Part shown: positions 17,331-52,753 of the stretch, piece after piece
Layout: each line of letters begins with the position of its first letter
Position numbering within the stretch: the first letter of the stretch is position 1
NCBI GenBank assembly: GCA_947449575.1
Contig: CANFRV010000024.1
Location: forward strand, 1-53,104
From: Flavobacteriales bacterium
GTDB lineage: Bacteria > Bacteroidota > Bacteroidia > Flavobacteriales_D > Crocinitomicaceae
DNA: 53,104 nt
Direction: 5' to 3'
Made by a program: the position numbers and the translations under genes
The notes under the pieces: model-generated
The model's database searches: none
Seen by the model: only the letters and a program-made list of their open reading frames with translations
What the model was told of the DNA's origin: nothing

Positions 17331-17413
17331 TTGGATAGAGAATTCGGCATGTTTTGAACATTATGATTTTAAAAACAATAAAAACGGATAGTATTAGTAG
17401 CTTTAAAAGAATG

Positions 17414-17421
17414 TACTTTTG
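17414..17421 (+). promoter_or_regulatory. -7 box for the FtsB/DivIC-like gene
   Basis: TACTTTTG fits TAnnTTTG. Transcription would begin around 17427, before the ATG at 17452 but after the TTG at 17419, supporting the ATG as the start. Confidence 0.5.
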
Positions 17422-17451
17422 AAGCAACAAGTGTTGTTGAGATTAAATCCC

Positions 17452-17736
17452 ATGAAGAAATATTTAAAATATTTAAAAAATAAGTTTATTTTAACGAGTG
17501 TAATTTTCTTTATTTATGCTTTGTTTTTAGATGATATAGATTTAGGGTCCATGATTAATCATTCTAGTAAATTAAGAAATCTAGAAGCTGCAAAGTTGGA
17601 AGTTTCTGCAAAATTGAATAAAACGAGACATACCTTAAAGCAATTACGTTATTATTCTGAAATTGAAAGATATGCCCGCGAGGAGAAATTTTTCAAAAAA
17701 GACAACGAAGATATTTTTGTGATTACTTATGAATGA
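17452..17736 (+). CDS. Septum formation initiator family protein (FtsB/DivIC-like)
   Basis: 94 aa from the ATG at 17452: short basic cytoplasmic start, one membrane segment (ILTSVIFFIYALFL), then a periplasmic coiled coil ending YARE-E-FFKKDNEDIFVI, the family pattern. Expected to join the FtsQ-L-B divisome scaffold. An in-frame TTG at 17419 would add 11 residues but precedes the predicted transcription start. In related Flavobacteriia this gene sits next to mutA/mutB, and here it lies between mutB and icmF. Confidence 0.88.
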   Translation: MKKYLKYLKNKFILTSVIFFIYALFLDDIDLGSMINHSSKLRNLEAAKLEVSAKLNKTRHTLKQLRYYSEIERYAREEKFFKKDNEDIFVITYE

Positions 17737-17960
17737 AATAGATGAAGCATTCAAGATTGAAAGACTTGAGTTTCTCTGGTCTTGAATCTTTGCGTCTTTT
17801 TTCATTGAGTCCAATTAATCAATTTTATCATTTCCGTCCTATTTCTTTTGAAAAAATCTGTGAACTTTAAGTTAATTTGACAGTACATTATTGTCGATAT
17901 TACGTATCTTTTTCGTTAATTTAGCAGCGCTTAAAAAAGCACTATTATTTAATTGAAAAC
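17737..17960. promoter_or_regulatory. Leader region before icmF
   Basis: 224 bp without a gene. TTG at 17891 followed after 23 nt by TAATTTAG (17917-17924) is a weak promoter match. I see no cobalamin-riboswitch-like B12 box. Confidence 0.3.
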
Positions 17961-20900: not shown

Positions 20901-21341
20901 ACCGATTTGGTGGAATCAGCTGTATTAACTGAATTTGATAGAATTACGGAAAGAGGAGGTGTTTTAGGGGCGATGGAGACGATGTACCAACGTTCTAAGA
21001 TTCAAGAAGAATCACTTTATTACGAAACGTTGAAGCACAATGGTGAATTCCCTATTATTGGTGTAAATACATTTTTGAGTTCAAAGGGTTCGCCAACCGT
21101 CCTTCCAAAAGAAGTAATTCGAGCTACCGAAGAGGAAAAACAATATCAAATTAACATGTTGGTTGACTTGCATGCAGCTAGTGCAGATCAAATGGCAGAT
21201 CAAATTAAGCAGATTCAAATGGCTGCCATTCAAAACAAGAATATTTTTGAAGAATTGATGGAAGTTAGTAAAACAGCTTCACTTGGTCAAATAACAAATT
21301 GTTTGTTTGAGGTTGGGGGGCAGTATCGACGCAATATGTAG
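17961..21341 (+). CDS. icmF: Fused isobutyryl-CoA mutase IcmF
   Basis: A 1126-aa fusion: N-terminal B12 domain (DGHD, residues 23-26, His25 the likely axial ligand), a MeaB-like G-protein chaperone (Walker A GTGGSGKS 203-210, NKFD 343-346), a linker, and a C-terminal mutase barrel. In the barrel Phe587 (RMFAGE) and Gln775 (AQNT) replace the Tyr and Arg of methylmalonyl-CoA mutase (Tyr77 and Arg195 of the MutB here); this Phe/Gln pair is the published isobutyryl-CoA mutase signature. It should interconvert isobutyryl- and n-butyryl-CoA, with a built-in GTPase for cofactor loading. Commonly annotated only as a methylmalonyl-CoA mutase family protein. Confidence 0.95.
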
Positions 21342-25765: not shown

Positions 25766-26194
25766 ATGAAAAAGCAACAAGTAGTACAAGAGCCCCTTAT
25801 TGCCTATGAGATGAAAGAATCTTTTGACAGCAATCGATTAGTAACGCTAGTTAGAGAAGGAGTTCAATTTAGTGTTTTTTCAAAATTATTAAAAAGGATT
25901 TCTTTTTCAGTACAAGAATGGTCTTCATTTTTGCATTTATCAGAAAGAACAATGCAAAGGTACCAAAAGGAAAACAAAACATTTGATATCTCCTCCTCAG
26001 AAAAAATCATTCAGATTACTATTTTATACGAGTTCGGAGTTTCTGTTTTTGGAAATAAAGAAAACTTCGATTCTTGGTTGATTACCAAAAATGTAGCCTT
26101 AGGATCAAAACCCATCGAATTATTAGACACTGTTTTTGGTATTGAGATCATAAACAATGAATTAATAAAAATAGAACACGGTATTTTTGCATGA
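25766..26194 (+). CDS. Xre/MbcA/ParS-type antitoxin (DUF2384)
   Basis: 142 aa. The N-terminal half contains a helix-turn-helix-like region (SVQEWSSFLHLSERTMQRY) and the C-terminal part is the toxin-binding domain (ALGSKPIELLDTVFGIEIINNELIKI, with the typical G-x-x-P-x-x-L-L-D pattern). The stop overlaps the RES toxin's ATG (ATGA at 26191-26194). Expected to neutralise the RES toxin and repress its own promoter. Confidence 0.9.
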   Translation: MKKQQVVQEPLIAYEMKESFDSNRLVTLVREGVQFSVFSKLLKRISFSVQEWSSFLHLSERTMQRYQKENKTFDISSSEKIIQITILYEFGVSVFGNKENFDSWLITKNVALGSKPIELLDTVFGIEIINNELIKIEHGIFA

Positions 26195-26649
26195 TCGTTT
26201 TTCGTTTGTGTAAATCTAAATATGCACATGATCTTTCTGGAAAAGGAGCTGAAAAAAGCGGAGGAAGATGGAATGGAAAAGGATATCCTATGCTGTATAC
26301 AAGTGGCTCAAGATCTTTATGTTTAATCGAAATTGCTGTGCATTTACCTCTAGGGATTTTACCAGATGATTTCGTGTTGGTTTCTATCGAATTTCCTGAT
26401 TCAATAGTAGTGAAAGAACTGCTTGAATTTGAACTACCTATCAATTGGAAAAGTTTTCCGCATCAAGTGGGAACGAGTAAATTGGGAAATGGTTTTTTAA
26501 AAAACGCCGATTATTTGATTTTAAAAGTTCCTTCGGCTGTCGTTCAAGATGAGTTTAACTTTTTGATTAATCCAGAACATGAATTATTTCATCAAGTTAA
26601 AATTTCTCAAATTGAGCCTTTTTACATTGATAATCGATTGTTTAGATAG
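26191..26649 (+). CDS. RES-domain toxin
   Basis: 152 aa. Family residues visible: Arg26 in GGRWN, Tyr36, Ser38, Glu47, Ser115 in VPSAVV and Asn127-Pro in NFLINP. RES toxins studied elsewhere deplete or modify NAD+ in the cytoplasm. The reading frame is intact with all key residues, so it should be active unless bound by the antitoxin encoded just upstream with a 4-nt overlap. Confidence 0.92.
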   Translation: MIVFRLCKSKYAHDLSGKGAEKSGGRWNGKGYPMLYTSGSRSLCLIEIAVHLPLGILPDDFVLVSIEFPDSIVVKELLEFELPINWKSFPHQVGTSKLGNGFLKNADYLILKVPSAVVQDEFNFLINPEHELFHQVKISQIEPFYIDNRLFR

Positions 26650-36679: not shown

Positions 36680-37425
36680 GAAAGAAAATAGTTGCAGGTA
36701 ATTGGAAAATGAATCTAATGAGCGTTGAAGCTAATGCCCTTTTTGATAAAATTTCCTCTAATTTATCAGGTTCTGATGAACCACTAGTGCTGGTTTTTCC
36801 TCCGTCTATTTTTTTACGTGAATTATCAAAAAAATCGAGTAAAACTGTTGCAATTGGAGCTCAGAATTTTTACCCGAAAGAAAAAGGTGCATTCACAGGG
36901 GAAATATCGGTTACTCAAGTGCAAGATTGCGGTGCAACTCATGTCTTGATTGGTCATTCTGAAAGACGTGCGTATTTTCAAGAAACAGAAAGTTTTTTAA
37001 AGGAAAAAGTGGAAAGTGCACTTGCCTATAACATAGGTATTGTATTTTGTTGTGGAGAGCCGTTGGAGATTCGTGAAAAAAATCAGGAAATGGAGTATGT
37101 GAAAAAGCAATTAGAAAATAGCCTTTTTCATTTAAGCGTTGCAGATATATCAAAATGTGTTATTGCTTACGAACCTGTTTGGGCAATTGGAACTGGAAAA
37201 ACAGCCTCAATTGAGCAAGCAGAGGAGATGCATTTTGCTATTCGTTCGTGGCTTAGTGGAAAATACGGTCAGCAGGTAGCGGATTCAATTTCAATTTTAT
37301 ACGGAGGAAGTTGCACGGCTGCAAATGCAAAAGAACTTTTTTCTTGCCCAAATGTAGATGGTGGTTTAATCGGAGGTGCTGCTTTAGATGCAGAGGCATT
37401 TCTACAAATTATACATTCTTATTAA
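36676..37425 (+). CDS. tpiA: Triose-phosphate isomerase
   Basis: A 249-aa TIM barrel interconverting DHAP and glyceraldehyde-3-phosphate. AGNWKMN at residues 7-13 holds the catalytic Lys, IGHSERR the catalytic His, and AYEPVWAIGTGK the catalytic Glu; the phosphate loop YGGS is near the end. ATG overlaps the preceding stop (ATGA). Confidence 0.98.
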   Translation: MRKKIVAGNWKMNLMSVEANALFDKISSNLSGSDEPLVLVFPPSIFLRELSKKSSKTVAIGAQNFYPKEKGAFTGEISVTQVQDCGATHVLIGHSERRAYFQETESFLKEKVESALAYNIGIVFCCGEPLEIREKNQEMEYVKKQLENSLFHLSVADISKCVIAYEPVWAIGTGKTASIEQAEEMHFAIRSWLSGKYGQQVADSISILYGGSCTAANAKELFSCPNVDGGLIGGAALDAEAFLQIIHSY

Positions 37426-38270
37426 TGGATTATTTAGAATTAACGATATCAATTGTGCCACGAAATCCGTGGGCTGAAATCTTAACAGCAGAGTTGGCGG
37501 ACTTGGGTTTTGAAAGTTTTGTAGATACGGAAGATGGAATTCAAGCATATGGATTATTGAAAAATATTGAACTAGAATCGGTTGTAAAAAAATCTAGTCT
37601 TTCCTCTGAAAATGAAGGTGTGCATTTTGAATTTACGCAAAAAGTAATACCACATCAGAATTGGAATGCACTATGGGAATCTGATTTTCATCCTGTTGAA
37701 GTGGAGGAATATTTAACAATTATTGCCCCTTTTCATTCAAAAGAAAATCTAAAAGGTATGATTGTTGAGATTCAGCCTCAAATGTCTTTTGGAACAGGTC
37801 ATCATCAAACCACTTGGTTGATGTCTAAAGCATTGTTCGAATTAGAAAGAATACCTGAATCTGTTTTAGATATGGGTACAGGAACGGGTGTTTTAGCAAT
37901 AATTGCTGAAAAATTAGGTGCTAAGACCATAGTTGGAATTGATATTGAAGATTGGACAGTCATTAATGCGAGAGAAAATATAAAAAGAAATACGTGTAAA
38001 TCGATCGAAATTTTGTGTGGCGATGTCGATTTAATTGAGGGCAGAAAATTTGGACTTATTATTGCAAATATTAATAAAAATGTATTAAAATCTCATATTG
38101 AATCATACAGCAGAGCGCTAGAATATGGAGGAATTCTGCTTCTTAGTGGTTTTTTTGATTCGGATGTTGATGAACTTATTACTTTTTCAAATGCTCATAA
38201 TTTAAAAATGAATAGAATTTATTCGAAAGAAAGTTGGGCGGGAATAAAACTTATTAAAGAAGAAAATTAA
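37425..38270 (+). CDS. prmA: Ribosomal protein L11 methyltransferase
   Basis: 281 aa from the ATG at 37425, which overlaps the last base of the tpiA stop; a longer in-frame start at 37311 lies inside tpiA and gives a Cys/Arg-rich nonsense leader, so it is rejected. N-terminal L11-recognition domain, then the SAM-binding core with FGTGHHQTT, LDMGTGTGVLAI and the catalytic-site IANINKNVL (NxN in place of the usual NI-L-type motif). Trimethylates L11. Confidence 0.95.
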   Translation: MDYLELTISIVPRNPWAEILTAELADLGFESFVDTEDGIQAYGLLKNIELESVVKKSSLSSENEGVHFEFTQKVIPHQNWNALWESDFHPVEVEEYLTIIAPFHSKENLKGMIVEIQPQMSFGTGHHQTTWLMSKALFELERIPESVLDMGTGTGVLAIIAEKLGAKTIVGIDIEDWTVINARENIKRNTCKSIEILCGDVDLIEGRKFGLIIANINKNVLKSHIESYSRALEYGGILLLSGFFDSDVDELITFSNAHNLKMNRIYSKESWAGIKLIKEEN

Positions 38271-38286: not shown

Positions 38287-41200
38287 ATGTTAAAAAAGAT
38301 ACTTTTAATTTTTGGGTTTAGTTTAACCAGTTATTTTTCTATAAGTCAGTCATATACGGAAGATAAAGGCGATTTTGTTAAGGCTTTTCACAAGGCGCTA
38401 AATGAATATGGTAAAGGAGAATTCTCTGATTTTGCTAAAAAAGATTTACCTGCAATGCTTCTTGAAACAACACAATTCCCCGCCAATTATTTTAAAAAAA
38501 TGGTGGAGACATGTAATTTAATGGAGTCAAAAAGAATGTCGCCCTACCCAGAAATTTATAACTATGTTTTTTCAGTATATTCTTTTGTCAAAGGAAAACA
38601 AAGTACTGCTAGTTATGATATTTGGCAGGCTGCAATAGATAAAATGCTCGCATCTAAGAATAATCAGAAATTTGAGGATTTTGTAGGGTTTTCAGGTTTA
38701 TTCTTTTCAAAACAGATAATCAGTGATAATGCAAATTTTGATTGGTATTATGTAGGTGGTACATTTTCTTTCGAATATACTGATAAACCTTTATTCAAGT
38801 GTGTCAATGGAACGCTAGCTTGTCGTGTCATTAACAATGATCAGAAAACAATGAAGGAATTTAAATTTGTGGATAGTTTGGTGATTTCAAATACTTCTGG
38901 AACATATGATCCGATGGCAAAAAGATGGGTTGGTAGTGGTGGATCATTGGATTGGGAAAAAGTCGGACTTTCTAAAAAACAGACATCTGCGATTCTTACT
39001 AATTATGAAATTTCAACTCGGGTTTCAAATTTTTCATGTGATTCTGTGACGTTAACAACTCCTTATTTTGCCAAACCAATCAAAGGTAGAATTGCCGATC
39101 GTGCTTTTAAAATAAATAGGGAAGAAGATAAAATATATCCTCAATTTACTTCATATGAGAGGAGACTATCTATTAAAAAGATAAAAGCGGATATTGATTA
39201 TGAGGGTGGATTTTCTCTTCAAGGAGCAAATTTTGTGGGGGTTGGCTACCCAAAGGAGCCAGCGAAAATGATTGTAAATAGAGGAGGAAAGGCTTTTTTA
39301 ACAGCAACTGCGCAAGAATTTATTATTAGCCCAATAGCGATTCATGGATTTAATACAGCCATTAAATTGATGCTGAACGATAATCATGATTCAATTATTC
39401 ATCCTGGTTTGGATTTTAAATACATAATTGATAAAAAGAGTGTTGAAATGGCTAGGACAAAGTCTGGTAATGGTCAAGCTCCTTTTCATAATACGTATCA
39501 TAAGGTTGATATGTATATGCCGAAATTGGCTTGGCAGACGGAATCCACAGACTTGGTAATCACCTACGAAATTGGTACGAGTCAAGAACAAAAAATTGCC
39601 ACTTTTGAATCTGAGAACTTCTTTGATGCACGTTTATTTGACAAACTACAAGGTATGGAACCAATTCATCCCTTGGTGGCAATTTCAAATTACTGTTATA
39701 AAAATGATGAATATATTTTATCAGATGGTAAAGTCGCTACCGCTTTAAGTAAGACACTTGAACAAGTTAAACCTCTATTATTAGAACTTGCTAATTATGG
39801 TTTTATCACCTACGATACAGATTCTAAAATGATTACCATCAATAGTAAACTGACCAATTTTGTCCTTGCTAAATCAGGTAAAAAAGATTTTGATAATTTA
39901 ATCTTTATTTGTGATTTACGTCCGAAAGAATTAACAGAGACACCAGAACAAATTGCCAAAGATGAAAATCTTCGCTTTGTGCAACTTGAATACAAAAAAA
40001 ATAATGAGGTGAGGCGGAATATGCCCGAATTTGGAAAATTAAGTTTAAGTTCATTAGAGCTTAATATCAAAGCGATCGACTTCATTAATATTTCTAGTGC
40101 TCAAAATACTTTTGTTGTTCCGACTGACAAAGAAGTTATTTTGAAAAAAGATCGAAACTTTGATTTTATCGGTTGGATAAGTTCTGGGAAAATGGAATTA
40201 AATGTCTTGGCTTCTTCCTTTAATTACAAAGAATTTAAATTTACGATTCAAAAAACACATAAATCATTGTTTAGAGTTAAACCTCTGAGACCGGAAGATG
40301 GCAATAGACCTATTGCTATGATGTCCAGCTTGAATGGAATTACAGGCGAGTTGTTTATTGATAATCCTACAAATCGATCTGGAATTAATCCTAAAATTAC
40401 CGATTATCCTCAGTTAAAAGTTTCAAAACCTTCTTTTGTGTATTATAATTCTCCTGCAATTTATAATGGCACCTATGATAGTAGTCGATTTTACTATACG
40501 GTAGATCCATTTTTCATTGATAGTTTGGATAATTTTGAAGAGAAATCTTTTAGAGTGATTGGAGAATTAACTTCAGCCGGTATTTTCCCGAAATTTAGAG
40601 AAAACTTGACGATTATGCCTGATTATTCCTTCGGGTTTTCAGCGAAAGCACCAGCGGGTGGACATGATTTTTATGGAACGAGTTCTAAATATGAAAATAA
40701 AATTATTTTATCGAACAATGGTTTAGAAGGGGCTGGAACAATTAATTATGTTCATTCAAGTTCTGTCTCGAAAGGTTTTACATTTTTTCCAGACTCAACA
40801 ATTGGTCTAGCTGTTTTCACAAACAAACCTATCGAAGTAGGTGTTCAATTTCCAGATGTTACATGTGAAAATGCCAACATTACCTACGTCCCTAAAAAGA
40901 ATTTATTGAAAGCGGCTTCTACAAATAAATTTGATTTATTGTTTTTTAATAAAGAAGCAAAACTCAGGGGTACGGCCATCGTAAGAGCTGAAGGAATGAC
41001 AGGTTTTGGTTTAATGAATGTGAAAAATGCAACAATGCTTTCCGATGATTATAAATTTAAAAGATGGGATGTTGATGCGGACACACTAGGTTTCAGTCTT
41101 AAAAATCAATATTTAGTTGAAGGGGAGGAGCCAATTGCATTAAAGACCGATAATGTGCAAGGACATGTTTCATTTGTGGACAGAAAAGGAGAATTTAAGT

Positions 41201-42906
41201 CAAATAACGGAGAAGCTAGACTCGATTTCCCCATCAATCAATATTTCTGTACTATGGATAAATTTACATGGTTTATGGATTTAGAATCGATTGAAGTTGA
41301 AGCGAAAGGAGGCGAAGACGCAGTGGCAAATGCAGATCTAGATTTACTCGGACCTAACTTTTTCTCCGCGCATCCTGATCAAGATTCTTTGCAGTTTAGG
41401 GCTCCAAAAGCGGCTTTTAACTTAAAAGAAAAATCAATTTATTGTTCGAAGGTATTTTATTTAGATGTTGCTGATGCACGAATTTATCCAGACAGTTCGA
41501 AAGTTGTTATTCGTAAAAAAGCAAAAATGGATCCATTCCAAGATGCTAAAGTGGTAGCCAATTATATTACTAAATATCATAAGTTCTTGCATTGTGAAAT
41601 ACAAGTGTCTGCGCGAAGAAAATATGCTGGTAAAGGTGTGTATCCCTATTATGATAAAGATAGTTTGAAAACGGATTTTACGATGAATAGAATTTATCTT
41701 GATTCAACGGGTCAAACAGTTGCTGAAGGTAAAATAGGACAAGATGCCAATTTCTATCTGAGTAAGCAATTTGATTATTATGGTGACGTTTCCGTAATTG
41801 CTTCCTTACCTACAATTATTTTCAAAGGTTCTACAAGAATGAATCATAATTGTGAGAAATTTCCCCGATCTTGGATTGCTTTGAGTGCTAATATTGATCC
41901 AGCAAATATTCAAATACCTATAGATGCTGCGATGAAAAACATTGAAGGAAAAAGTGTAATGGCAGGTTTAGCATGGAGAGATTCAAAAGTTTTGGATAGT
42001 ATTCGCTTGTATCCAACATTTTTATCTCCATTGCAAAATGATTTAGATCCTGTCGTAATGAAAGCTACGGGTTTACTTCAATACAATGTGGACGCAAAAG
42101 AATTTCAAATTGGTTCAGTGGATAAATTACTGAATCGAGGTGAGAAAGGAAATTTTCTTTCTTTGCATACAGAAACTTGCATACTGGATGGTAATGGCGC
42201 GATTAATTTAGGGATGAATTATGGTGATGTCAATGTAAGTTCTGTTGGTGTAGTCAATTATAATCCTAAAAAAGGAGAAACGACGATGAATCTTACAGCT
42301 AAGTTTAATATGCCAATGGACAAAGGTTTGATGCAAGATTTAGCTGTTAAAATGGCAGCTGTTGAGGATTTAAAACCATTGGATTTTAATTCAAGTACCT
42401 TGGAGCAAGCTGTTTTAGAATGGTCGGGTCGGGAAGAAGCAGATAAGATGAAAGCGGACTATACAATTAATGGAGAGCTCAAATATCCAAAAGGGCTGGA
42501 GTCTGCGTTAACAATAACAGGATTAAAAATTAAATCATTTGATATTAAAACAATGCAAGAAAGAGGATTTATTTCAACGTCAGAAACGGCTTCTATTGTT
42601 TGTATGTATGGTAAACCTGTATTTAAAACGGTTCCTTTTAAGGCATTCTTTTTACAATCCTACTCATTGTCTGAAACGGTAGGAGATAAATTCGGACTGC
42701 AAATTAATATTCCTACGCTTGATTATTATTTTGATTATTCCATGGAAGCGAAAGATGGAACCATGCGCATAATTTCAGGTGATCCTGATTTTGTGACTGC
42801 AGTGAATGCAATAAAAGAAGATAAAAGAAAAATTAAGAATTTTAAATATGCAATAGAAACGGGAAGCATTTATTTAAGTAAGTTTTTACGTTATTTTGGA
42901 CTTTGA
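38287..42906 (+). CDS. Large secreted protein of unknown function (1539 aa)
   Basis: A signal peptide (ILLIFGFSLTSYFSISQ) precedes a helical region (about residues 25-150), then a very long beta-rich body with many short strand-turn segments and no transmembrane helix. A small helical region around residues 450-540 (PLVAISNYCYKNDEYILSDGKVATALSKTLEQ) may be a winged-helix-like module. There is no type IX secretion C-terminal domain. I recognise no family. It starts 17 bp after prmA and runs straight into plsY (stop and start overlap), so it is operonic. Its size and context suggest an envelope or cell-surface role together with the giant protein (inference). Confidence 0.75.
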   Translation: MLKKILLIFGFSLTSYFSISQSYTEDKGDFVKAFHKALNEYGKGEFSDFAKKDLPAMLLETTQFPANYFKKMVETCNLMESKRMSPYPEIYNYVFSVYSFVKGKQSTASYDIWQAAIDKMLASKNNQKFEDFVGFSGLFFSKQIISDNANFDWYYVGGTFSFEYTDKPLFKCVNGTLACRVINNDQKTMKEFKFVDSLVISNTSGTYDPMAKRWVGSGGSLDWEKVGLSKKQTSAILTNYEISTRVSNFSCDSVTLTTPYFAKPIKGRIADRAFKINREEDKIYPQFTSYERRLSIKKIKADIDYEGGFSLQGANFVGVGYPKEPAKMIVNRGGKAFLTATAQEFIISPIAIHGFNTAIKLMLNDNHDSIIHPGLDFKYIIDKKSVEMARTKSGNGQAPFHNTYHKVDMYMPKLAWQTESTDLVITYEIGTSQEQKIATFESENFFDARLFDKLQGMEPIHPLVAISNYCYKNDEYILSDGKVATALSKTLEQVKPLLLELANYGFITYDTDSKMITINSKLTNFVLAKSGKKDFDNLIFICDLRPKELTETPEQIAKDENLRFVQLEYKKNNEVRRNMPEFGKLSLSSLELNIKAIDFINISSAQNTFVVPTDKEVILKKDRNFDFIGWISSGKMELNVLASSFNYKEFKFTIQKTHKSLFRVKPLRPEDGNRPIAMMSSLNGITGELFIDNPTNRSGINPKITDYPQLKVSKPSFVYYNSPAIYNGTYDSSRFYYTVDPFFIDSLDNFEEKSFRVIGELTSAGIFPKFRENLTIMPDYSFGFSAKAPAGGHDFYGTSSKYENKIILSNNGLEGAGTINYVHSSSVSKGFTFFPDSTIGLAVFTNKPIEVGVQFPDVTCENANITYVPKKNLLKAASTNKFDLLFFNKEAKLRGTAIVRAEGMTGFGLMNVKNATMLSDDYKFKRWDVDADTLGFSLKNQYLVEGEEPIALKTDNVQGHVSFVDRKGEFKSNNGEARLDFPINQYFCTMDKFTWFMDLESIEVEAKGGEDAVANADLDLLGPNFFSAHPDQDSLQFRAPKAAFNLKEKSIYCSKVFYLDVADARIYPDSSKVVIRKKAKMDPFQDAKVVANYITKYHKFLHCEIQVSARRKYAGKGVYPYYDKDSLKTDFTMNRIYLDSTGQTVAEGKIGQDANFYLSKQFDYYGDVSVIASLPTIIFKGSTRMNHNCEKFPRSWIALSANIDPANIQIPIDAAMKNIEGKSVMAGLAWRDSKVLDSIRLYPTFLSPLQNDLDPVVMKATGLLQYNVDAKEFQIGSVDKLLNRGEKGNFLSLHTETCILDGNGAINLGMNYGDVNVSSVGVVNYNPKKGETTMNLTAKFNMPMDKGLMQDLAVKMAAVEDLKPLDFNSSTLEQAVLEWSGREEADKMKADYTINGELKYPKGLESALTITGLKIKSFDIKTMQERGFISTSETASIVCMYGKPVFKTVPFKAFFLQSYSLSETVGDKFGLQINIPTLDYYFDYSMEAKDGTMRIISGDPDFVTAVNAIKEDKRKIKNFKYAIETGSIYLSKFLRYFGL

Positions 42907-43538
42907 TGTACATGAATTTAATAATATTTGGTAGTCTAGCCTATTTATTGGGGTCAATTCCTTCTGCTGTGTGGATTGGGAAAACCTGGTATGGTATTGA
43001 TGTGAGAGAGCATGGCAGTAATAATGCAGGTGCAACAAATACCTTCCGAGTGCTTGGTAAAAATGCAGGAATTACAGTGTTAGTTATTGATATATTAAAA
43101 GGTTTTTTAGCAGTATATCTGCCAGTTCTTATTCATTTCGGAGCTGAAACTATTTTGGATGGAGAACTGATTCATATTCAAATTCTTGCAGCAATTACTG
43201 CAGTACTTGGACATGTTTTCCCTATTTTTGCTGGTTTTAAAGGAGGTAAAGGAGTAGCTACATCATTAGGTATAATTATAGGGATTCACCCGCCTACCGC
43301 GTTAGTTTGTTTAACGTTATTTTTGATTGTATTTTTAACTACGAAATTTGTTTCTTTTGGGGCAATTTGTTCTTCCATCGCTTTCCCGATCGTTTTGGTT
43401 TTTGTTTTTAAGACAACAGATTTCTCTTTGATATTATTTAGTATTTTTCTATCATTTGCAGTTATTTTTGCCCATCGCAAGAATATAACTAGATTGATAA
43501 AAGGAGAAGAAAATAAAATGAATTTATTTAAGAAATGA
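42906..43538 (+). CDS. plsY: Glycerol-3-phosphate acyltransferase PlsY
   Basis: 210 aa from ATG 42906 (ATG at 42912 also possible; a TTG at 42903 is unlikely). Five membrane segments and the three PlsY motifs: GSIPSAVWIGK, GSNNAGATNTFR and GHVFPIFAGFKGGKGVAT. Transfers acyl from acyl-phosphate to glycerol-3-phosphate, the first step of phospholipid synthesis. The last segment is followed by a basic tail. Flanked by the two giant genes. Confidence 0.96.
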   Translation: MYMNLIIFGSLAYLLGSIPSAVWIGKTWYGIDVREHGSNNAGATNTFRVLGKNAGITVLVIDILKGFLAVYLPVLIHFGAETILDGELIHIQILAAITAVLGHVFPIFAGFKGGKGVATSLGIIIGIHPPTALVCLTLFLIVFLTTKFVSFGAICSSIAFPIVLVFVFKTTDFSLILFSIFLSFAVIFAHRKNITRLIKGEENKMNLFKK

Positions 43539-43560: not shown

Positions 43561-46500
43561 ATGAGTTTAAAATCTTTATATATACTGCTATTAGTTGTTT
43601 TTTCAACCACTTTTTCTTTCTCACAAGAAACGATAGAAGAAGTGAAATCAGCTGCTGATAAACTGTTTGAAAATGAAAAATATTTGGAGGCAACTCCCTA
43701 TTATTTAAGGCTGCTAGCCATTGAGCCAAGGAATCATAATTATAATTTCCGTTATGGAACTTGCCTGTTGTATAATACGAGTAAAGGTCAGGATGTTTTT
43801 AAATATTTGAATTATGCGGTGACAAATGAGGCCGTTGAAGTGGAAGCATACTATTTTTTAGCGAAGGCATTTCATCTAAATTATCAATTCAATGACGCTA
43901 TCAAATATTACACAATATATCAAACCAAGGCAGGTGAGAATGCAAAACAGGCCTTAGATGTAAAACGTCAAATTGAAATGTGTGAAAATGGTAAACGATT
44001 AATTACCACTATTACAGAAATGGTTGTAATCGATAAAAAGGAAATTGAAATTGAAAAATTTTTCCGAATTTATGATTTAAGTGACATAGGTGGTAATTTG
44101 TTAGTTACTGCAGAATTTCAGACAAAAATTGATGAGAAAAAAGCACATATTCCTTTGATTCATTTTCCAGAAAACCCGACTGTTATTTATTATTCAAGTT
44201 ATGGTGATAATGCAAAAACGGGGAAAGATATATATGTGAGGAGAAGATTGCCAACGGGTGGCTGGGGTATTCCTCAAGCAATTCAAGGGGGTGTAAATAC
44301 AAATTTTGATGAGGATTACCCGTACATGCATCCAGACGGTAATTATTTGTATTTCAGTTCAAAAGGTCATAATTCTATGGGGGGATTTGATGTTTTTCGT
44401 TGTAAATACGATGCAGAAACGGATGTGTTTGGAGTAGCTGAAAATATTGATTATGCCGTTTCCTCGCCAGATGATGATTTATTTTATGTGGTTGATTCAT
44501 TAAACAAAAATGCCTATTTCGCTTCAGGTCGTCAAAGTGAGGAAGGGAAATTATTTGTCTATAAAGTAAGGGTTGACCGTGTACCATTAAATATGTCTGT
44601 TGTCAAAGGGCAATTTTCTTCTACGATAAATCCAGCTCAAAAGAAAGTGTTTGTCGATGTAAAAGATTACGCAACAGGTGAGTTTATTGGGAATTTTAAT
44701 TCAAATGACAAAGGAGTGTATCTTATTACATTTCCAAAAGGTGGAAAATATGAATTTACGATAAAGGTGGGTGATAGTCCGCAGGAATATAAATATATAG
44801 CTTCCATTCCCTTTTTGAAGGAATTTAAACCTTTAAAACAAAAGATTGTTCACGCCATGGACGGTGATCGTGAAAATGTGAAAGTTATTGATTTGTTTGA
44901 TGAACAAGTCGAAGATCCTCAAGCAGTTTTTGCACAAGTTTTAAAATTAAAAGCCGTTTTAGCACCTAATATTACGCAGGAAGAATTAGATCTTTTAGAT
45001 AAAGATATAAAATCAAAGCAAGTTTTGGAAGACCTTGGTATTGGGAAATTATCCCTTGTTGAGGTGGGTTATTTATTGGATGAAGAAGTGAAAGATGCTG
45101 AAAAAGCACAAGGGGGAACAAAAGAAATTGAAAACAAAGTGAATACCCAGATAATCGCCAATACAAAAGAAATCAATCGCTTGGATTTAGTGATAAAAAG
45201 TAAATTGGATAAAGCGAATGTAGCGGATAGTGATAAGAAAAAATATAAACTGCTGAAGGAGGCTGATAGAGCTTTAAAATTGCAAGAAGATCTGAAAGTA
45301 TTAAATGAAGTTAGTCTGAAATATGCAGATTCGATATCAAAAATACCTGTTACTGGTTCAGAGGCTCAAACAGCTGAAGTGAAAAAGTTTGCACAGCATT
45401 TTAATGAACTTCTTAAGGAAAATAAGCAAAAAGAAGCATACGCCTACTTATATGACAACAAGGTTGCAATTAAGAATATTATAGATGTTAAGGCGCCCGA
45501 TCCACTGCAAGATATGATTGATCGTGGATTAATTTTAGATGAAGAAATTAATCGATTACAGCCTAAGGATGATAAATATGCACTAGATATTAAAAAAATT
45601 GAACAAGAAATAGCAACACTTGAGCAATCAAAAGTTACGGCAAAAAATAAGGATTTACCTGATATACAGGCAGCGATTAAATCCAAAATGAATGAAAAAA
45701 ACATGATTGCCGAAGAAAGAAATTTCAATGGTGTTGGTTTAAATGATAAAATAAACGAAAGAAGTTCTTTAAGAAAACGGATAGATATTTTGGAAGGAAT
45801 TTATGATATCAAAGCAGATAAAATAATTTCTAAAGAGGAACTTAATAGTGCGCTGGCTTCTTCTAAAGCGACCAATTCAGCTGCCATTAGAAAAGAACTT
45901 AGCGAAGAAATTGCATCATTAGTATTGAAAAATCCTGACGTTAAAGAGATTGATTATTCAGAAATGGAAGGTGAATTAGGTTCCGTTGCTACAAAATCTA
46001 GATCTCAGGCAGAAAAAATAAAAACAGATCCAAATTTAACGGCAGAACAAAAAGCTGCAAAATTAAACGCAATCAATGCAGAGCTTTTAACAACTATCAA
46101 TAAAGAAGTTAGTATTGCAAAAAAGGCGGTTGAAAAAAATCCAAACGATCCCAATTTGAAAGCAAAATTGGATGCTTTGCAATTCTCAAAATCTCTGGTT
46201 GCTGCATCACTTGACATTCCTTCGGATGATGTTGATTTGGAGGTTGTTGCTTCGACTGTATCAAATGGTTCCTCAACAAAACCTTCATCTTCCTCTACAT
46301 CTGTCGCTGTAAACTCTGAAAAACCCGCAAATAGCGCAACAACTTCTCCAGTAAGTGCGAAGCCACCTATCGTAACAGATTCTCCAGCAAAAGAAGTCAC
46401 TAAAAACACAGAAGTATCTGCCACTGTGCCTTCCACTGAAACGAAGTCCGCATCTACAAATTCTACATCTGCCACCACTGCTCCAAATGTAAGTGCAAAA

Positions 46501-49500
46501 GAAGTAGAAGTCGCGAGTTCGCAATCTACTTCAACAGCGAAATCTTCTGATCCTGATTTAAATAAAAACAATGTAGATCTAAAGGCATCACAAGCAGGAA
46601 GCAATTCGGCTGCAACCTCCGGTGAAAATGAAATTTCAAACGCGACAACAACAACTCCATTAACTGTTAAAGAAAAAGAGATACTTATAGAGACTGTAAA
46701 TCCATCGTACAATGAGAAAGTCGAAAAAATAAACTCGAATTCATCTCTATCTGCTGTTGAAAAATTGAAACAATTACAGGATACCGATAATGAATTATTA
46801 TCTGGAATTGAAGTGTCTATTAGTAAAACTGAATCTGAACTAAAGAAAGCACCTTCAGATATTGTATTAAAAGACAAATTGAATGATTTTAAAGACGTTC
46901 AATCCGATTTAACTGCCGCTATTTCCAAACGAGAAAAAGAAATTGGAACGAATGGTATTTCAAACTCTACAAATCCAATCTCAGCAAAAGAAAAAGAAAC
47001 ACTGGTTGAATCGGTAAACTCATCCTATAATGAACAAGTTGCTGCAATTAATACGAGTGGATCACTTTCGGAAGCGGATAAATTAAATCAACTGCAGGCA
47101 TTAGATAAAGGATTATTAACAGCTGTGACAAGTCAATTAACAAATACAGAAGCGGCAGCAAAAAATAGTCCTACGGATCCTGTTTTAGTTAAAAAAGTAG
47201 CGGATTTAAAAACAGTCCAATCGGATCTTAAATCTGCAATTTCAGCGCGTGATCGTGTTATTGCAACGGTAGGTCAACCGTATACTCAAAAAGCAAAAAC
47301 GGATATAATAGACGGCTTATCACCCATGTATTCTGTTAAAGTGGCTGATATTAATAAAAATACAACTATTTCAGAACCTGAAAAATTAGCACAATTACAA
47401 AAAGCGGACAAAGAATTACTTATTTCTGTGAATAAAGAGATTTCTGCACTTGAAAATAATGTTAAAAATAATGCAGATCCGCAGTTAATGAAAGAATTAG
47501 GGGATTATAAATCCTTGAAAAAAGAATTAGAATCTGCCATTTCAACAAGAGAAAATGTCCTTGCAGCTGCAACCGTTCAGCCTGTGAAAGTCAATGAAAT
47601 CAACCGCCCTGATGCTGAATTATCATCTCAAAATAGAGTTCCGAGCACGACAAGTACTTCAACAGAATCAACTACGAATACTGCCAACAAAGCGCCAGTA
47701 AAAAGTGCTGAAAATATCAGTAATGAAAAACCGAACGATCCAATATCGAATCAGAAAGAAGGTAATGTAACATCTCAAAATTCTGAACAAAAAACGACAA
47801 GTACTTCCACCGAATCGACTAATAATGCGAGTAATAAAGCTCCAGTTAAGAATGATGAGAAAATCAATCCTGCAAAACCGAATGATCCAGTATTGAATCA
47901 GAAAGAAGGTAACCTTGTATCTCAAAATTCTGAACAAAAAACGACAAGTACCTCCGCTGAATCTGCTACTAATACTGCCAATAAAGCGCCAGTGCCAGTT
48001 AAAAATGATGAAAAATCAAATTTAATTGAATCTGTAAATTCCAGTTACAATGAAGAAGTAGCGAAGGTAAATGCAAATAATTCACTGACTAATAATGAAA
48101 AATTAAATCAAATTCAATTATTAGATCGCGCTTTAATTGAGTCTGTCAATAAAGAGATTAAAACGACTGCAGATACTAAAAAGAAAGAAAAGTTAACGGC
48201 ATTAAGAACGGAATTAGAAGCAAATGTTACGGCGCGAGAATTGGTAATTGCTGCTAATTTTAAACCAGTCGACAAAGCTGTGAAGGCAAATGTGATTAAG
48301 TCAATTGATTCCAAATACGATAAAAAAGTAGAAGCAATTAATACGAATGCGGACTTATCTATTTCCGAAAAACTTACGCAATTACATGAATTAGACTTTG
48401 AAGTTATTTCAAAGATTAAGCAAGAAATCTCAGAAGTTACTGCAGATTTGGCTAAAAAACCAACGGATGCACTTTTAACAAAAAAGATAGAAGATTTGAA
48501 AGCTGTGCAGGCTGATTTGGAGCATGAAGTAGCTAATCGAGAATCTATAATTGCAGCTTCGAATTCCGTTGTGGATGATAAAGCAAAAGCCGAGTTAATT
48601 GAATCAGTCAGTTCTCAATACAATGAAAAGATTCAAGAATTAAAAAATAATGAATATTTGTTGGATTCTGAAAAACAAGCAGAATATCAAAAAATCGATC
48701 GACAGCTTCTTCAGTCAATTGAAAAGGAAATTGTTTCTCTGGAAGGAGAGATGGCTTCGAACCCTTCAAATTCTCAAGCAAAAAGAAAACTGGAAGGGTT
48801 GAAAATAGTAAAATCTGACTTGCAGAAATCAATATCGGAAAGAGAAAAGAGTTTAGCTCCTGAGTCAGCATTAAGTAATCCACTTGCTGCAAGCGCGGGA
48901 CTAATTGAAACGATTAGTAAAGGTTACAATGAAAAAGTAACAGCTATTAATGAGGATGCCTTTATTTCTCAAACGGATAAACTAATACAGTTTGAAAAAT
49001 TAGACAAAGAACTCCAGTTAGTTCTAAACAAAGAAGTTACTAAAAGTGTTTCAGCAGCCAAAAAGAAACCGAATGATCTAGAGCTTCAAAAAAGGAAAAA
49101 TGATTTAATAGCGCTCAAAAAGATTGTAGATGAGGTCGTTAATGAGGCGCCGCAACAGATTTTAAATTCTATTGCTGCTTCTGTTACTGATCAACAAAAA
49201 AATACACTGATTTCAACTGTGAAACCAGGGCATGATTCAAAAATAGAAGGTATTAAGAATTCTTCAAAAGCACCTATTAAAATTATAGAAGAATTAATTA
49301 TAGAAGAAAAAGCCTTAATTTCTAAACTAGAAGCAGAAGAAAAAATAAATCAAGTTAATCAAAAGAAAGATCCAAAGAACGATGATTTAAAAAGAAAAGG
49401 GACTGTTATTACGGTTGCTTTAGAGGAAAGCGAACTTAGAATTAACGCTTTAAATAGCGGTGCTGTCACCTTATCGATACAGGGTATTGATCAAAAAGCG

Positions 49501-52428
49501 CTCGTTGCCAAAGTTGACCCCACTTTTGAAACAGATGTAAAAACGTTGTTTGAATCTACATCTCCAACGAAAGCAAGTGATTTAGCAAACAGAGAAGAAA
49601 AGTTACAGGAAAAAATTCTTGCTCAAATAGCTGCAAATAATGAAGCAATTGCTACTAATTACACGTTAGAATTAGCCGCCGAAAATCAGATTTTAAATCA
49701 AAAAATGATTGAAAGTAAAGCAAGAAAAGAAAAATACAAAACTGGAGGAACCGATGTGTCCGTGAATAAATCAAGTTCTGCTACTACTGAAAAAGTAAAT
49801 GAATTAAGAAACGATCTTTTGGCCGATGATGCAGGGGAAGTAAGTAAGAATTACACGAAAATTGATGAACTACACGCACAAGAAGAGATTTTATCAGCGT
49901 ATAAAGACACTTTAAAATCTCGCTTGGACAATGTGAATCAATCGTTACTGATCGAAAAAAATGAGCCGACTTTATTAGAGCAAAAGGATTCGTACACTTC
50001 TGAATTGACCATCGTTGATTCTAAATTGAAACAAGTCACAAAAGCAATCTCAGGTATTGAAGAGTCAGCTCCAGTCGTTATGAATCCTGAATTGAAAAAA
50101 CTAATGGATCAAGAAGGAGAGATTAAAGAACAATTGGCAAAAACAGATTTATCTAAAAAAGAGCGTGCATCCTTAGAAAAGGAATTGATCCAAGTGCAAA
50201 AAGAAAAGAGTGTAGTTGAAAATAAACTTATTACAGAAAATATTACTACGCGCAAAGCGGATAATCAAACTAAAAGCACTCAGTTGACAAATCTAGCAGC
50301 AACATCAGATGCGGCGAAGTTAAATGCTGACATAGCTGCTTCTCAAAATAAGCGTTTGACAGCTGAAACAGACGTCTTGATTGCACAATCTGAAAAGACA
50401 AAAGATCCCGTAGAAAAAAATAAATTATTGAATCAAGCTATTGTAAAGCAAGTAAAAGCAGATAATGCTGTTCAGAATGCATTGGAAGAAAATACCACCT
50501 TACTTGCTATAAAATCAAAAGTTGAAACATTAGATTCAAAGGAAGAATTAGAGCAAAAGAAAAGTGACTTAGAGCAAGAATTATCTGATTTAACCGCAGA
50601 AGAGAATCAAGTGAACATAGATATTTCAGCAGTTAAACCCAATAAGGTTGGCGACTTGCAAAAAAAGAAAGAGGGGATAGTGTATGAAAAAACCTTAATC
50701 GCAAAACAACTAGAAGTGGTGACGAAACAGATTGACAACATCGTTCCAATACCAAAAACTATTAGTTCAACTGCTATAGAACAGATTATCTCAACGAATG
50801 AAGAAAAGAGTCTAATTGCCTCTAAAGAATATTTAGAATATGCTATAAATGCAAAAGCGGCGATTCGAGTTGAGGGACAAATTAAGGAATCTGAAGCAAC
50901 CTTGATAGAAAAAAGACAAATTGCAAAAGATTTGATTGTTAAGTCATTAGATAAAAAGAATACTGTTTTACCTACAGACATTTCTCAAGCAGTAGAAAAT
51001 GTCAAAATAGTTGAAGATGAAATCTCTACGTTGAAACAAGAATTGGCTGAAAAACAAAAAAATGCAAGCACTGTGTTTGCGGGTATCCCTGATAAAAAGG
51101 GCAAACTGGAAAATCTTTTGAAAAGGGAAATCGAACCTAGCTACAATAAAGATTTAGCGGAAGCAGAGGCGAAAAGAATGGAAGCAGAAGGGTTGACGAT
51201 CGAAGCTAAAAAGGCAGAAGGTATTGAGATTGTTCCTGTTTTGACACCAATTAATATTTATTCCTCTACAAATCCAATTCCAGTGGATGTAAAGAACGGT
51301 TCAGGTCTGCTTTATAGAATTCAGGTGGGAGCTTTTTCTAAACCGATCGCACAAGATATGTACAAATCATTTACGCCAGTATCTGGTGAAAAATTGAGTA
51401 GTGGAGTGACACGTTACATGGCGGGTTATTTTAATAAAAATGTAATTGCGGAGGAAGCATTTGCGCAAGTTAAATCGTTGGGATATTCAGATGCATTTAT
51501 TGTTGCATACTGTGATGAAAAAAGAATTCCTATTTCTGAAGCAAAAAGCCTAGAAGCATCAGGCGAATGTATTTCAACTAAAAGTGAGTTATTTGTGATA
51601 GCGACTTCTAAAATGCCATCAGCTAACGCAGCATCTAAAGAACCCAATACAAGCGATTTGAGTTATAATATTGCGCCAGGAGCAGCAAAAGCAACGCCTG
51701 TTGAATCTCATTTAGGTTTATTTTATACCGTTCAAGTCGGCGTATATAACAAGCCAGCAACGATTAAACAATTAAAAAACATAGATCCTCTGGTCACAAA
51801 ACGTTTACCGAATGGTCAGATTCGATATTCATCAGGGATGTTTAATTCGATTGAAGCCGCAAAACCTAAAAAAGCCGATGCTAGGGCAAAAGGTGTGAAA
51901 GATGCATTTATTAGCGCATATTATAAGGGAGAAAGAATAACCTTATCGCAAGCAAGTCTTCTACTGAAAAAGAATGGAGAAGGAATTTTGGAGAAACTCG
52001 ACAGCGAATTGGTTTCTTCAGTTCAGCCAGCTGAAAAAGCTTCTGTTGTTATTCCTAAGGAAAAACCGATAGTAACAACAAATTACAATGTGGGACCAGG
52101 AGCGGTAAAAGCAACAGCTGTGGAGACGAAATTGGGATTATTTTTCACGGTTCAAATTGGTGTATATAGCAAACCAGCTACTAAAAAACAGTTGAATAAT
52201 GTAACAGATTTAATCACGAAAAAATTGCCAAATGGGCAACTACGTTATTCATGTGGTATGTATAATTCAATTGAAGCGGCTGAACCTAAACGTCAGGAGG
52301 CATTATCAAAAGGTGTGAATCATGCTTATATCACTGCGTATTATCAAGGGGAACGAATTACCATTTCTGAAGCAAAAGAATTGCTGCGGATTAATGGTGA
52401 TTCAATTTTAGAAAAAATAGAAAAATAA
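43561..52428 (+). CDS. Giant PorE-like TPR/PD40 protein with helical repeats and C-terminal SPOR-like domains
   Basis: 2955 aa. Order: signal peptide (LYILLLVVFSTTFSFSQ); TPRs about 20-150; PD40/WD40-like blades about 185-340 (IYYSSYGD, YPYMHPDGNYLYFSSKG); a carboxypeptidase-regulatory-like domain about 343-430; helical and coiled-coil segments; about ten ~100-aa repeats opening LIESVxxxYNEKV (from residues about 800, 1042, 1148, 1249, 1488, 1578, 1679, 1781, 1883 and 1981); two Ser/Thr/Pro-rich linkers (about 885-1035 and 1348-1485); a coiled coil to about 2555; and three SPOR-like repeats (about 2583-2665, 2719-2800, 2859-2940) opening G-L-x-(Y/F)-x-(V/I)-Q-(V/I)-G. PorE has the same N-terminus but an OmpA-type peptidoglycan domain instead. 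A periplasmic or outer-membrane scaffold that grips septal peptidoglycan is inferred. The frame is intact. Confidence 0.88.
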   Translation: MSLKSLYILLLVVFSTTFSFSQETIEEVKSAADKLFENEKYLEATPYYLRLLAIEPRNHNYNFRYGTCLLYNTSKGQDVFKYLNYAVTNEAVEVEAYYFLAKAFHLNYQFNDAIKYYTIYQTKAGENAKQALDVKRQIEMCENGKRLITTITEMVVIDKKEIEIEKFFRIYDLSDIGGNLLVTAEFQTKIDEKKAHIPLIHFPENPTVIYYSSYGDNAKTGKDIYVRRRLPTGGWGIPQAIQGGVNTNFDEDYPYMHPDGNYLYFSSKGHNSMGGFDVFRCKYDAETDVFGVAENIDYAVSSPDDDLFYVVDSLNKNAYFASGRQSEEGKLFVYKVRVDRVPLNMSVVKGQFSSTINPAQKKVFVDVKDYATGEFIGNFNSNDKGVYLITFPKGGKYEFTIKVGDSPQEYKYIASIPFLKEFKPLKQKIVHAMDGDRENVKVIDLFDEQVEDPQAVFAQVLKLKAVLAPNITQEELDLLDKDIKSKQVLEDLGIGKLSLVEVGYLLDEEVKDAEKAQGGTKEIENKVNTQIIANTKEINRLDLVIKSKLDKANVADSDKKKYKLLKEADRALKLQEDLKVLNEVSLKYADSISKIPVTGSEAQTAEVKKFAQHFNELLKENKQKEAYAYLYDNKVAIKNIIDVKAPDPLQDMIDRGLILDEEINRLQPKDDKYALDIKKIEQEIATLEQSKVTAKNKDLPDIQAAIKSKMNEKNMIAEERNFNGVGLNDKINERSSLRKRIDILEGIYDIKADKIISKEELNSALASSKATNSAAIRKELSEEIASLVLKNPDVKEIDYSEMEGELGSVATKSRSQAEKIKTDPNLTAEQKAAKLNAINAELLTTINKEVSIAKKAVEKNPNDPNLKAKLDALQFSKSLVAASLDIPSDDVDLEVVASTVSNGSSTKPSSSSTSVAVNSEKPANSATTSPVSAKPPIVTDSPAKEVTKNTEVSATVPSTETKSASTNSTSATTAPNVSAKEVEVASSQSTSTAKSSDPDLNKNNVDLKASQAGSNSAATSGENEISNATTTTPLTVKEKEILIETVNPSYNEKVEKINSNSSLSAVEKLKQLQDTDNELLSGIEVSISKTESELKKAPSDIVLKDKLNDFKDVQSDLTAAISKREKEIGTNGISNSTNPISAKEKETLVESVNSSYNEQVAAINTSGSLSEADKLNQLQALDKGLLTAVTSQLTNTEAAAKNSPTDPVLVKKVADLKTVQSDLKSAISARDRVIATVGQPYTQKAKTDIIDGLSPMYSVKVADINKNTTISEPEKLAQLQKADKELLISVNKEISALENNVKNNADPQLMKELGDYKSLKKELESAISTRENVLAAATVQPVKVNEINRPDAELSSQNRVPSTTSTSTESTTNTANKAPVKSAENISNEKPNDPISNQKEGNVTSQNSEQKTTSTSTESTNNASNKAPVKNDEKINPAKPNDPVLNQKEGNLVSQNSEQKTTSTSAESATNTANKAPVPVKNDEKSNLIESVNSSYNEEVAKVNANNSLTNNEKLNQIQLLDRALIESVNKEIKTTADTKKKEKLTALRTELEANVTARELVIAANFKPVDKAVKANVIKSIDSKYDKKVEAINTNADLSISEKLTQLHELDFEVISKIKQEISEVTADLAKKPTDALLTKKIEDLKAVQADLEHEVANRESIIAASNSVVDDKAKAELIESVSSQYNEKIQELKNNEYLLDSEKQAEYQKIDRQLLQSIEKEIVSLEGEMASNPSNSQAKRKLEGLKIVKSDLQKSISEREKSLAPESALSNPLAASAGLIETISKGYNEKVTAINEDAFISQTDKLIQFEKLDKELQLVLNKEVTKSVSAAKKKPNDLELQKRKNDLIALKKIVDEVVNEAPQQILNSIAASVTDQQKNTLISTVKPGHDSKIEGIKNSSKAPIKIIEELIIEEKALISKLEAEEKINQVNQKKDPKNDDLKRKGTVITVALEESELRINALNSGAVTLSIQGIDQKALVAKVDPTFETDVKTLFESTSPTKASDLANREEKLQEKILAQIAANNEAIATNYTLELAAENQILNQKMIESKARKEKYKTGGTDVSVNKSSSATTEKVNELRNDLLADDAGEVSKNYTKIDELHAQEEILSAYKDTLKSRLDNVNQSLLIEKNEPTLLEQKDSYTSELTIVDSKLKQVTKAISGIEESAPVVMNPELKKLMDQEGEIKEQLAKTDLSKKERASLEKELIQVQKEKSVVENKLITENITTRKADNQTKSTQLTNLAATSDAAKLNADIAASQNKRLTAETDVLIAQSEKTKDPVEKNKLLNQAIVKQVKADNAVQNALEENTTLLAIKSKVETLDSKEELEQKKSDLEQELSDLTAEENQVNIDISAVKPNKVGDLQKKKEGIVYEKTLIAKQLEVVTKQIDNIVPIPKTISSTAIEQIISTNEEKSLIASKEYLEYAINAKAAIRVEGQIKESEATLIEKRQIAKDLIVKSLDKKNTVLPTDISQAVENVKIVEDEISTLKQELAEKQKNASTVFAGIPDKKGKLENLLKREIEPSYNKDLAEAEAKRMEAEGLTIEAKKAEGIEIVPVLTPINIYSSTNPIPVDVKNGSGLLYRIQVGAFSKPIAQDMYKSFTPVSGEKLSSGVTRYMAGYFNKNVIAEEAFAQVKSLGYSDAFIVAYCDEKRIPISEAKSLEASGECISTKSELFVIATSKMPSANAASKEPNTSDLSYNIAPGAAKATPVESHLGLFYTVQVGVYNKPATIKQLKNIDPLVTKRLPNGQIRYSSGMFNSIEAAKPKKADARAKGVKDAFISAYYKGERITLSQASLLLKKNGEGILEKLDSELVSSVQPAEKASVVIPKEKPIVTTNYNVGPGAVKATAVETKLGLFFTVQIGVYSKPATKKQLNNVTDLITKKLPNGQLRYSCGMYNSIEAAEPKRQEALSKGVNHAYITAYYQGERITISEAKELLRINGDSILEKIEK
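47626..48066 (+). repeat. Three 147-bp direct repeats inside the giant gene
   Basis: TCTCAAAA recurs at 47626, 47773 and 47920, exactly 147 bp apart, each followed by ACGACAAGTAC and by AAxGCxCCAGT. They encode 49-residue Ser/Thr/Asn/Lys units of the second linker. The third copy has a 6-bp insertion (PVPVK). In-frame length keeps the gene open. Confidence 0.85.
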
Positions 52429-52480: not shown

Positions 52481-52753
52481 ATGCAAAAGACAGAATATTA
52501 TTCAGAGGAGTTAGTTTTAGATGAGTTAGTAGATCAGAAAGATTTAATCGTATTTAACGATGATGTGAACTCTTTTGATCATGTTATTGCATCTTTAATA
52601 AAGATCTGCAAGCATACAGACGTTCAAGCAGAGCAATGCACAATGATTATTCATTATAACGGAAAATGTCAGGTTAAGCGAGGTGAATACGAAAAGTTAG
52701 AACCTATGTGTACGGCACTTTTAGAAAAGGGAATAACAGCAGAAATTCAATAA
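52481..52753 (+). CDS. clpS: ATP-dependent Clp protease adaptor ClpS
   Basis: 90 aa. VFNDDVNSFDHVI is the ClpS core with the substrate-binding Asn-Asp-Asp segment, followed by QAEQCTMIIHYNGKCQVKRG, where the His and the binding pocket for N-degron residues lie. Delivers N-end-rule substrates to ClpA/ClpC. In many Bacteroidota it directly follows prmA; here two large envelope genes and plsY have come between. Confidence 0.95.
   Translation: MQKTEYYSEELVLDELVDQKDLIVFNDDVNSFDHVIASLIKICKHTDVQAEQCTMIIHYNGKCQVKRGEYEKLEPMCTALLEKGITAEIQ

Follow-up and report, generated by a model that had tools for sequence, protein, structure and literature searches.

A widespread family of giant secreted envelope proteins in Bacteroidia with a PorE-related head and predicted C-terminal SPOR repeats

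The stretch of DNA analysed here (the window; 53,104 nucleotides of contig CANFRV010000024.1, assembly GCA_947449575.1, Flavobacteriales bacterium) encodes a giant secreted protein composed of a TPR/PD40/CRD head, a spacer of ~2,100 residues and three C-terminal SPOR repeats. Judged from profile comparisons and a tree, the giant is a member of a separate family whose head is homologous to those of PorE-type proteins; it is not a PorE with a swapped anchor. The folds recognised in it from the sequence are of known types, and a model covering the whole giant was absent from both Pfam and NCBIfam. We propose that this secreted, non-lipidated protein serves in the periplasm as a scaffold that couples the outer envelope to amidase-processed, probably septal, wall, a reading to which we give about an even chance of being right.

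The open reading frame (43561-52428, plus strand) starts with ATG and runs for 2955 codons with zero internal stops. In a different assembly of the genus, a 2890-aa orthologue shares 96% identity with the giant over the first 450 residues; therefore, the giant is unlikely to be an artefact of one assembly. The gene lies in a tight same-strand run in which no gap exceeds 52 bases, in the order PrmA-like, c0, PlsY, giant and ClpS-like (Table 1). The PrmA-like and ClpS-like neighbours are presumably what their names say, the labels having been assigned from the sequence. Promoter-like and terminator-like sites were about as frequent as in shuffled sequence. Elsewhere on the plus strand of the window, there are two genes that we take to be methylmalonyl-CoA-mutase-like, near a longer, presumably fused mutase/GTPase-like gene (12970-21341), and two small overlapping genes resembling what we take to be an Xre/RES toxin-antitoxin pair (25766-26649).

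Table 1. Features of the giant protein and its neighbouring genes; positions refer to the window and residues to the giant.
Feature	Residues	Position	Strand	Basis or remark
PrmA-like methyltransferase		37311..38270 as listed; actual start probably downstream of this	+	label assigned from sequence
c0, 1539-aa secreted protein without recognised family		38287..42906	+	conserved neighbour
PlsY glycerol-3-phosphate acyltransferase, between c0 and giant		42903..43538	+	NCBIfam match
Giant protein, 2955 aa		43561..52428	+	ORF list and translation
Signal peptide without lipobox Cys	~1-22	43561..43626	+	by eye
TPR region	~31-129	43651..43947	+	head profile vs PDB TPR proteins
PD40 propeller region	207-338	44179..44574	+	PorE family model match
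CRD-like region, boundary approximate	~345-440	44593..44880	+	hhalign vs PorE-type proteins
Ten helical-module copies, S/T/N-rich linkers between some		46003..49731	+	period near 100 aa
Helical modules 1-5	815-880, 1043-1126, 1149-1231, 1250-1332, 1489-1560
Helical modules 6-10	1579-1661, 1680-1763, 1782-1862, 1884-1965, 1982-2057
SPOR repeat 1 (Q2588, F2592, R2618)	2582-2664	51304..51552	+	profile, Pfam, model
SPOR repeat 2 (Q, Y, R kept)	2719-2799	51715..51957	+	profile, model
SPOR repeat 3 (Q, Y, R kept)	2859-2941	52135..52383	+	profile, model
ClpS-like 90-aa protein, after giant		52481..52753	+	label assigned from sequence

The initial annotation had described an open reading frame with a signal peptide and a TPR, PD40 and CRD head related to PorE, and both this layout and the relationship were borne out. 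In an hhalign comparison, the head of the giant family aligned over 392 columns with four PorE-type proteins of the giant's own genome (probability 100, E 1.9e-41). The gaps fell where the giant is missing part of the propeller, and compared with the five blades of PorE its propeller region appears shortened. Among single models, Pfam PD40 matched residues 246-279 just below its cut-off (E 4.5e-4, 20.6 vs 20.9 bits), and the PorE family model matched the propeller region at E 3.2e-17; its 62 bits compare with a cut-off of 600 that is set for whole proteins. All of the 38 family heads matched the PorE model (NF052230; best E 6.7e-28). They also all matched the model of CHU_0125, the Cytophaga hutchinsonii OmpA-like outer membrane integrity protein (NF053607), and slightly better (best E 3.3e-33). 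With the head stretch only as query, the CHU_0125 match of the giant had 70 bits and did not reach the cut-off of 620; with the whole giant as query, NCBIfam gave no CHU_0125 match at E≤1. Two proteins with short starts (L078, L090) were excluded from the head profile, and one with its N-terminus in another frame (L099) was excluded from head alignments and kept for SPOR counts.

PorE of Porphyromonas gingivalis (PG1058) is described as a lipoprotein of ~670 residues in which a TPR and a five-bladed propeller precede a CRD and an OmpA_C anchor (PMC7192894). The giant shares with it the order of the first three domains. It differs from PorE in its shorter propeller region, its 2-kaa spacer and its SPOR repeats, which stand at the end where no OmpA family was found at E≤1 in Pfam or NCBIfam. 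It also differs at the N-terminus. The signal peptide, read from the sequence, ends in SFSFSQ, and by eye no Cys is present in the first 60 residues, so the lipoprotein signal of PorE is absent and the giant would not itself be lipid-anchored in the outer membrane; such anchoring, which a PorE-like reading had implied, was not upheld. CHU_0125 likewise combines TPR and PD40 (PMC5891637), but it has 656 aa and ends in OmpA_C.

In the giant's own genome, the PorE model matched 29 stretches at E≤0.01, all below its 600-bit cut-off; the model is not specific, as matches at this E value also occurred in 9/14 control genomes. Among the 29 are two near full-length PorE-type proteins that carry an OmpA domain. 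One (L001) has 639 aa, a lipobox and scores of 445 bits to PorE and 467 bits to CHU_0125, and adjoins a gene that we take to be PorP/SprF-like. The other (L002) has 713 aa and scores about 424 bits to PorE. We infer that one of these two is likelier to be the PorE of this genome than the giant. In a tree of 16 giants and ten own-genome paralogues, seven of which have long branches, a branch with 100/100 support separated the giants from the paralogues. Because PorE-type OmpA paralogues coexist with the giant, the heads match CHU_0125 equally and the giants group apart, a PorE with a swapped anchor does not describe this protein. The idea that SPOR repeats had replaced the PorE anchor stood as regards the three repeats and the missing OmpA domain, and failed as regards the identity of the protein.

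The repeats of the tail are of a SPOR subtype that Pfam detects poorly. On the whole giant, Pfam gave no SPOR match at E≤1. In a genome search with the Pfam SPOR model, repeats 1 and 2 of the window protein appeared below the cut-off, at E 0.31 and 0.63, and repeat 3 was absent among the matches at E≤10, a threshold at which 13/14 control genomes also had matches. Searched alone, repeat 1 matched Pfam SPOR at E 0.013, with 16.3 bits against a cut-off of 21. At the level of the family, 55/92 single repeats matched Pfam SPOR at E≤1 (best 9.8e-7) and the next family matched five; these 92 were selected for the repeat alignment from 122 family repeats found. Compared with PDB sequences, the repeat profile matched CwlC SPOR best (E 0.0011); the remaining eight rows had E≥0.019 and were not SPOR by name. 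Of the three HMM searches that had been suggested for this protein, those with PorE and PD40 gave matches below cut-off, and that with Pfam SPOR gave none on the whole protein, the repeats being resolved by the family-wide scan.

We also predicted the structure of the tail (residues 2571-2955) by AlphaFold2 from ten sequences. The model was of middling quality (mean pLDDT 74.7, pTM 0.40) and contained three similar alpha/beta units. In VIA-align, rows 1 and 3-6 were SPOR structures, namely CwlC (1x60; Z 6.7, rmsd 2.2, 68 aligned) in row 1, followed by RlpA (6i09 and 6i05; both Z 6.2, rmsd 2.2, 68 and 67 aligned), DedD (Z 5.2, rmsd 3.3, 74 aligned) and DamX (Z 4.7, rmsd 3.0, 72 aligned). Row 2 was 6ozd (Z 6.5), which is not known to us as a SPOR protein, and row 7 had Z 3.9. 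The SPOR rows fell on repeats 1 and 3 of the model. Foldseek gave CwlC SPOR as its best match, a weak one (E 0.048). The tail is therefore predicted to adopt the SPOR fold, in which two helices pack against one face of an RNP-like beta sheet, as had been supposed at the outset. Of the two results that the initial annotation had named as refuting its reading, a tail without this fold and a head unrelated to PorE, neither was obtained. Repeat 3 stops 14 residues short of the C-terminus, and no T9SS C-terminal sorting domain was found in the giant (NCBIfam, E≤1).

The residues that contact glycan in RlpA seemed to be conserved in this subtype. Q270 and an arginine patch of RlpA are described as the key contacts to denuded glycan, and Q270, F274 and R302 as bounding the site for glycan that lacks stem peptides (PMC6895207). 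We surveyed 168 repeats from 57 proteins, locating Q270 and F274 by counting from where the VIA-align alignment begins, on the assumption of no gap, and inferring the R302 position from spacing. Among first and second repeats, the Q270 position held Q in 112/114, the F274 position F or Y in 110/114, and the presumed R302 position R or K in 111/114. Comparatively, third and later repeats kept Q in 14/54 and R in 4/54. The window protein keeps the whole set in all three repeats, and its relatives usually lose it from the third repeat on. In predicted fold and in the Q/F/R pattern, the repeats are thus like the SPOR domains (PF05036) of CwlC, RlpA, DedD and DamX; they differ in falling below the Pfam cut-off in the window and in forming a tandem array of 2-5 on a giant protein.

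The same subtype occurs in proteins that look like amidases. In the giant's own genome, an amidase-like protein (L018) has a SPOR with which the repeat profile aligned over 65/89 columns (probability 96.1, E 3.3e-9); with another SPOR protein of this genome (L016), the alignment was not convincing (probability 6). L018 was the closer of the two own-genome SPOR proteins compared. It differs from the giant in being enzyme-like, 333 aa long and with a single SPOR, and its assignment as an amidase rests on sub-cut-off NCBIfam matches. Two proteins from elsewhere (L129, L130), labelled amidase-like from the sequence, carry the giant's subtype. A different secreted protein of 1150 aa (L128), encoded by a minus-strand ORF, also ends in one SPOR of this subtype (E 1e-24), so the subtype is common to several kinds of protein.

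Between head and tail, the spacer spans approximately residues 450-2580, compared with the nearly 2,000 residues of helical spacer first suggested. Three of its ten modules (residues 1579-1862) were modelled; they were all-helical with a mean pLDDT of 89.7, and each had a pair of short and a pair of long helices. The spacer also includes two S/T/N-rich linkers, and the remainder would be helical as judged from composition only. A 147-bp tandem repeat (47647-47993; 2.4 copies, 79% matches) lies within an S/T/N-rich linker of the gene. Neither Foldseek nor VIA-align revealed a significant structural relative of the modules. A spectrin-like fold was the top row in Foldseek, but at E 0.051 it was not significant, and VIA-align gave no separation from common helical arrangements. 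The modules resemble spectrin repeats (1u4q) in being tandem, all-helical and ~100 aa long; they differ in their two short and two long helices, and homology is not claimed.

Across 41 complete proteins of the order, copy number of the module varied from 0 to 16, with nine proteins having none, and it was correlated with protein length (Spearman 0.76). The module was missing in 14/16 relatives drawn across the class, so that it is mostly a feature of this lineage. At the textbook helix rise, and with long helices of ~31 residues, ten modules placed end to end would measure ~50 nm. We infer that a simple taut tether does not fit, because modules in such a row would span more than the distance from outer membrane to wall. 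The tether to septal glycan proposed in the initial annotation seemed strengthened at its glycan end, by the conserved contacts and the similarity to the SPOR of L018.

The architecture is widespread. In what follows, we take the order to be Flavobacteriales in a broad sense and the class to be Bacteroidia, judging from titles such as Crocinitomicaceae and Fluviicola. A SPOR array was present in 41/41 complete order-level proteins, the window protein included, with 2-5 repeats and lengths of 1,817-3,621 aa. This count leaves out proteins truncated at contig ends (e.g. in L053-L056, L061, L064 and L068), and also L051 and L052, which duplicate the genes of L065 and L066. The head with 2-3 SPOR repeats was also found in 16/16 class relatives from 15 further families (1,482-2,586 aa), which had been chosen from the best class matches and in whose alignment one row is still shifted. 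By hand count, the head was matched at 190 bits or more in 49/59 close and order-level genomes, and there were at least two SPOR matches at E≤1e-8 in 209/245 order genomes, weak matches and amidases included. At E≤1e-17, 165/396 class genomes had at least two SPOR matches. All three counts are only proxies for the giant, and amidases and other proteins contribute SPOR matches; the last count serves below as the SPOR-array proxy. One genome (G561) had 12 SPOR matches of this subtype over several ORFs, besides a giant-sized ORF of 2347 aa.

In a genus with reduced genomes, the giant (L127) has ~1,250-1,460 aa, depending on the choice of start, and keeps the head, two SPOR repeats and, by eye, its PlsY and c0-like neighbours; in a sister species (L126) it is cut by a contig end. 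Assemblies titled Chryseobacterium gleum and Chitinophaga pinensis (L051, L052, L063) carry close relatives of the giant, and these titles look mislabelled. One family with many genomes (f60) had no member among the listed matches for the SPOR array or c0. From its SprA scores, we took this family to be probably Flavobacteriaceae; if so, this absence may explain why the giant has not come to light in model gliders.

The most frequent neighbour was c0. It lay within eight ORFs of the giant in 35/41 loci, compared with 29 each for the ClpS-like and PrmA-like genes and 25 for PlsY, some of the 41 loci ending at contig or stretch borders. In the class sample, c0 was wider in distribution than the giant (309/396 genomes). 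It occurred in 163/165 proxy-positive genomes and 146/231 others; the p-values of this comparison ignore kinship and are given no weight here. Of the 80 class genomes with both positions listed, 32 had c0 and the SPOR array no more than 16 kb apart, 9 had them at a greater distance on the same contig and 39 had them on separate contigs. We found no convincing match for c0 in Pfam (28 members) or NCBIfam (window member only), and its best match among PDB sequences, an antibody chain at E 0.11, was not convincing either. By eye, c0 looks rich in beta strands.

Taken as a coupler of outer envelope and wall, the giant might work as follows. SPOR repeats 1 and 2 (all three in the window protein) would bind glycan strands from which amidases have stripped the stem peptides. 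For the first two repeats, this binding has good support from residue conservation, and it would concentrate the giant at the division septum and new poles. The head may hold an outer-membrane or envelope partner, possibly c0, a step with weaker support and one against which the many proxy-negative genomes with c0 count; an outer-membrane anchor was not seen in the giant itself. The spacer would give a long reach, its length being set in this lineage by the number of helical modules. The giant would then work like Tol-Pal or a PorE-type linker, with a septal-glycan anchor in place of theirs. A stronger version, in which head, module-counted spacer, paired SPOR repeats and c0 form a Bacteroidia-wide one-protein counterpart of Tol-Pal that draws the outer membrane in at division, seems unlikely to us. 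By analogy, a role in integrity instead of division is also possible, because deletion of chu_0125 harmed outer-membrane integrity, with no division defect seen by SEM (PMC5891637).

The length of the spacer can also be read in another way. It is far longer than crossing the periplasm needs, and variable, as would be expected if it lay flat on the wall in a lateral lattice or track; such a scaffold could be bound along the whole wall, given that in the RlpA model a run of two NAM-NAG units lacking stem peptides is all that SPOR requires (PMC6895207). However, a subtype shared with amidase-like proteins and conserved contacts to denuded glycan favour septal enrichment, and we regard binding along the whole wall as somewhat unlikely. 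The shared subtype would equally suit a recruiter or regulator of septal wall enzymes, amidases or others, with the head as a docking platform and not an outer-membrane link, and TPR and propeller domains are described as general docking modules (PMC7192894). Among the few recurrent neighbours inspected, however, none looks like an amidase, and the characterised relatives of the head, PorE and CHU_0125, are described as outer-membrane or wall proteins (PMC7192894, PMC5891637), which makes this reading quite unlikely. Membership of the type IX secretion/gliding machinery, with SPOR in place of the OmpA anchor of PorE, as initially suggested from the head and in keeping with its homology to PorE and with the presence of SprA in 164/165 proxy-positive genomes, is very unlikely: SprA is nearly universal in the class sample (385/396 genomes, including 221/231 without the proxy), so that its overlap says little, separate PorE-type proteins exist in the genome, one of them with a lipobox and adjoining the PorP/SprF-like gene, the giants group apart from these paralogues, no T9SS gene was recognised by eye among the ORFs of the window, and no other link to this machinery was found.

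A widespread family of giant envelope proteins is now defined, of which no description, and no paper on a giant TPR-PD40-SPOR protein, was found in the open-access literature searched. For a scaffold coupling envelope to septal wall, the tail gives a sharp prediction, namely that the giant would bind amidase-denuded, hence septal, glycan. To our knowledge, the link between outer membrane and dividing wall in these bacteria is little understood, and the giant and c0 may provide a testable gene pair for it.
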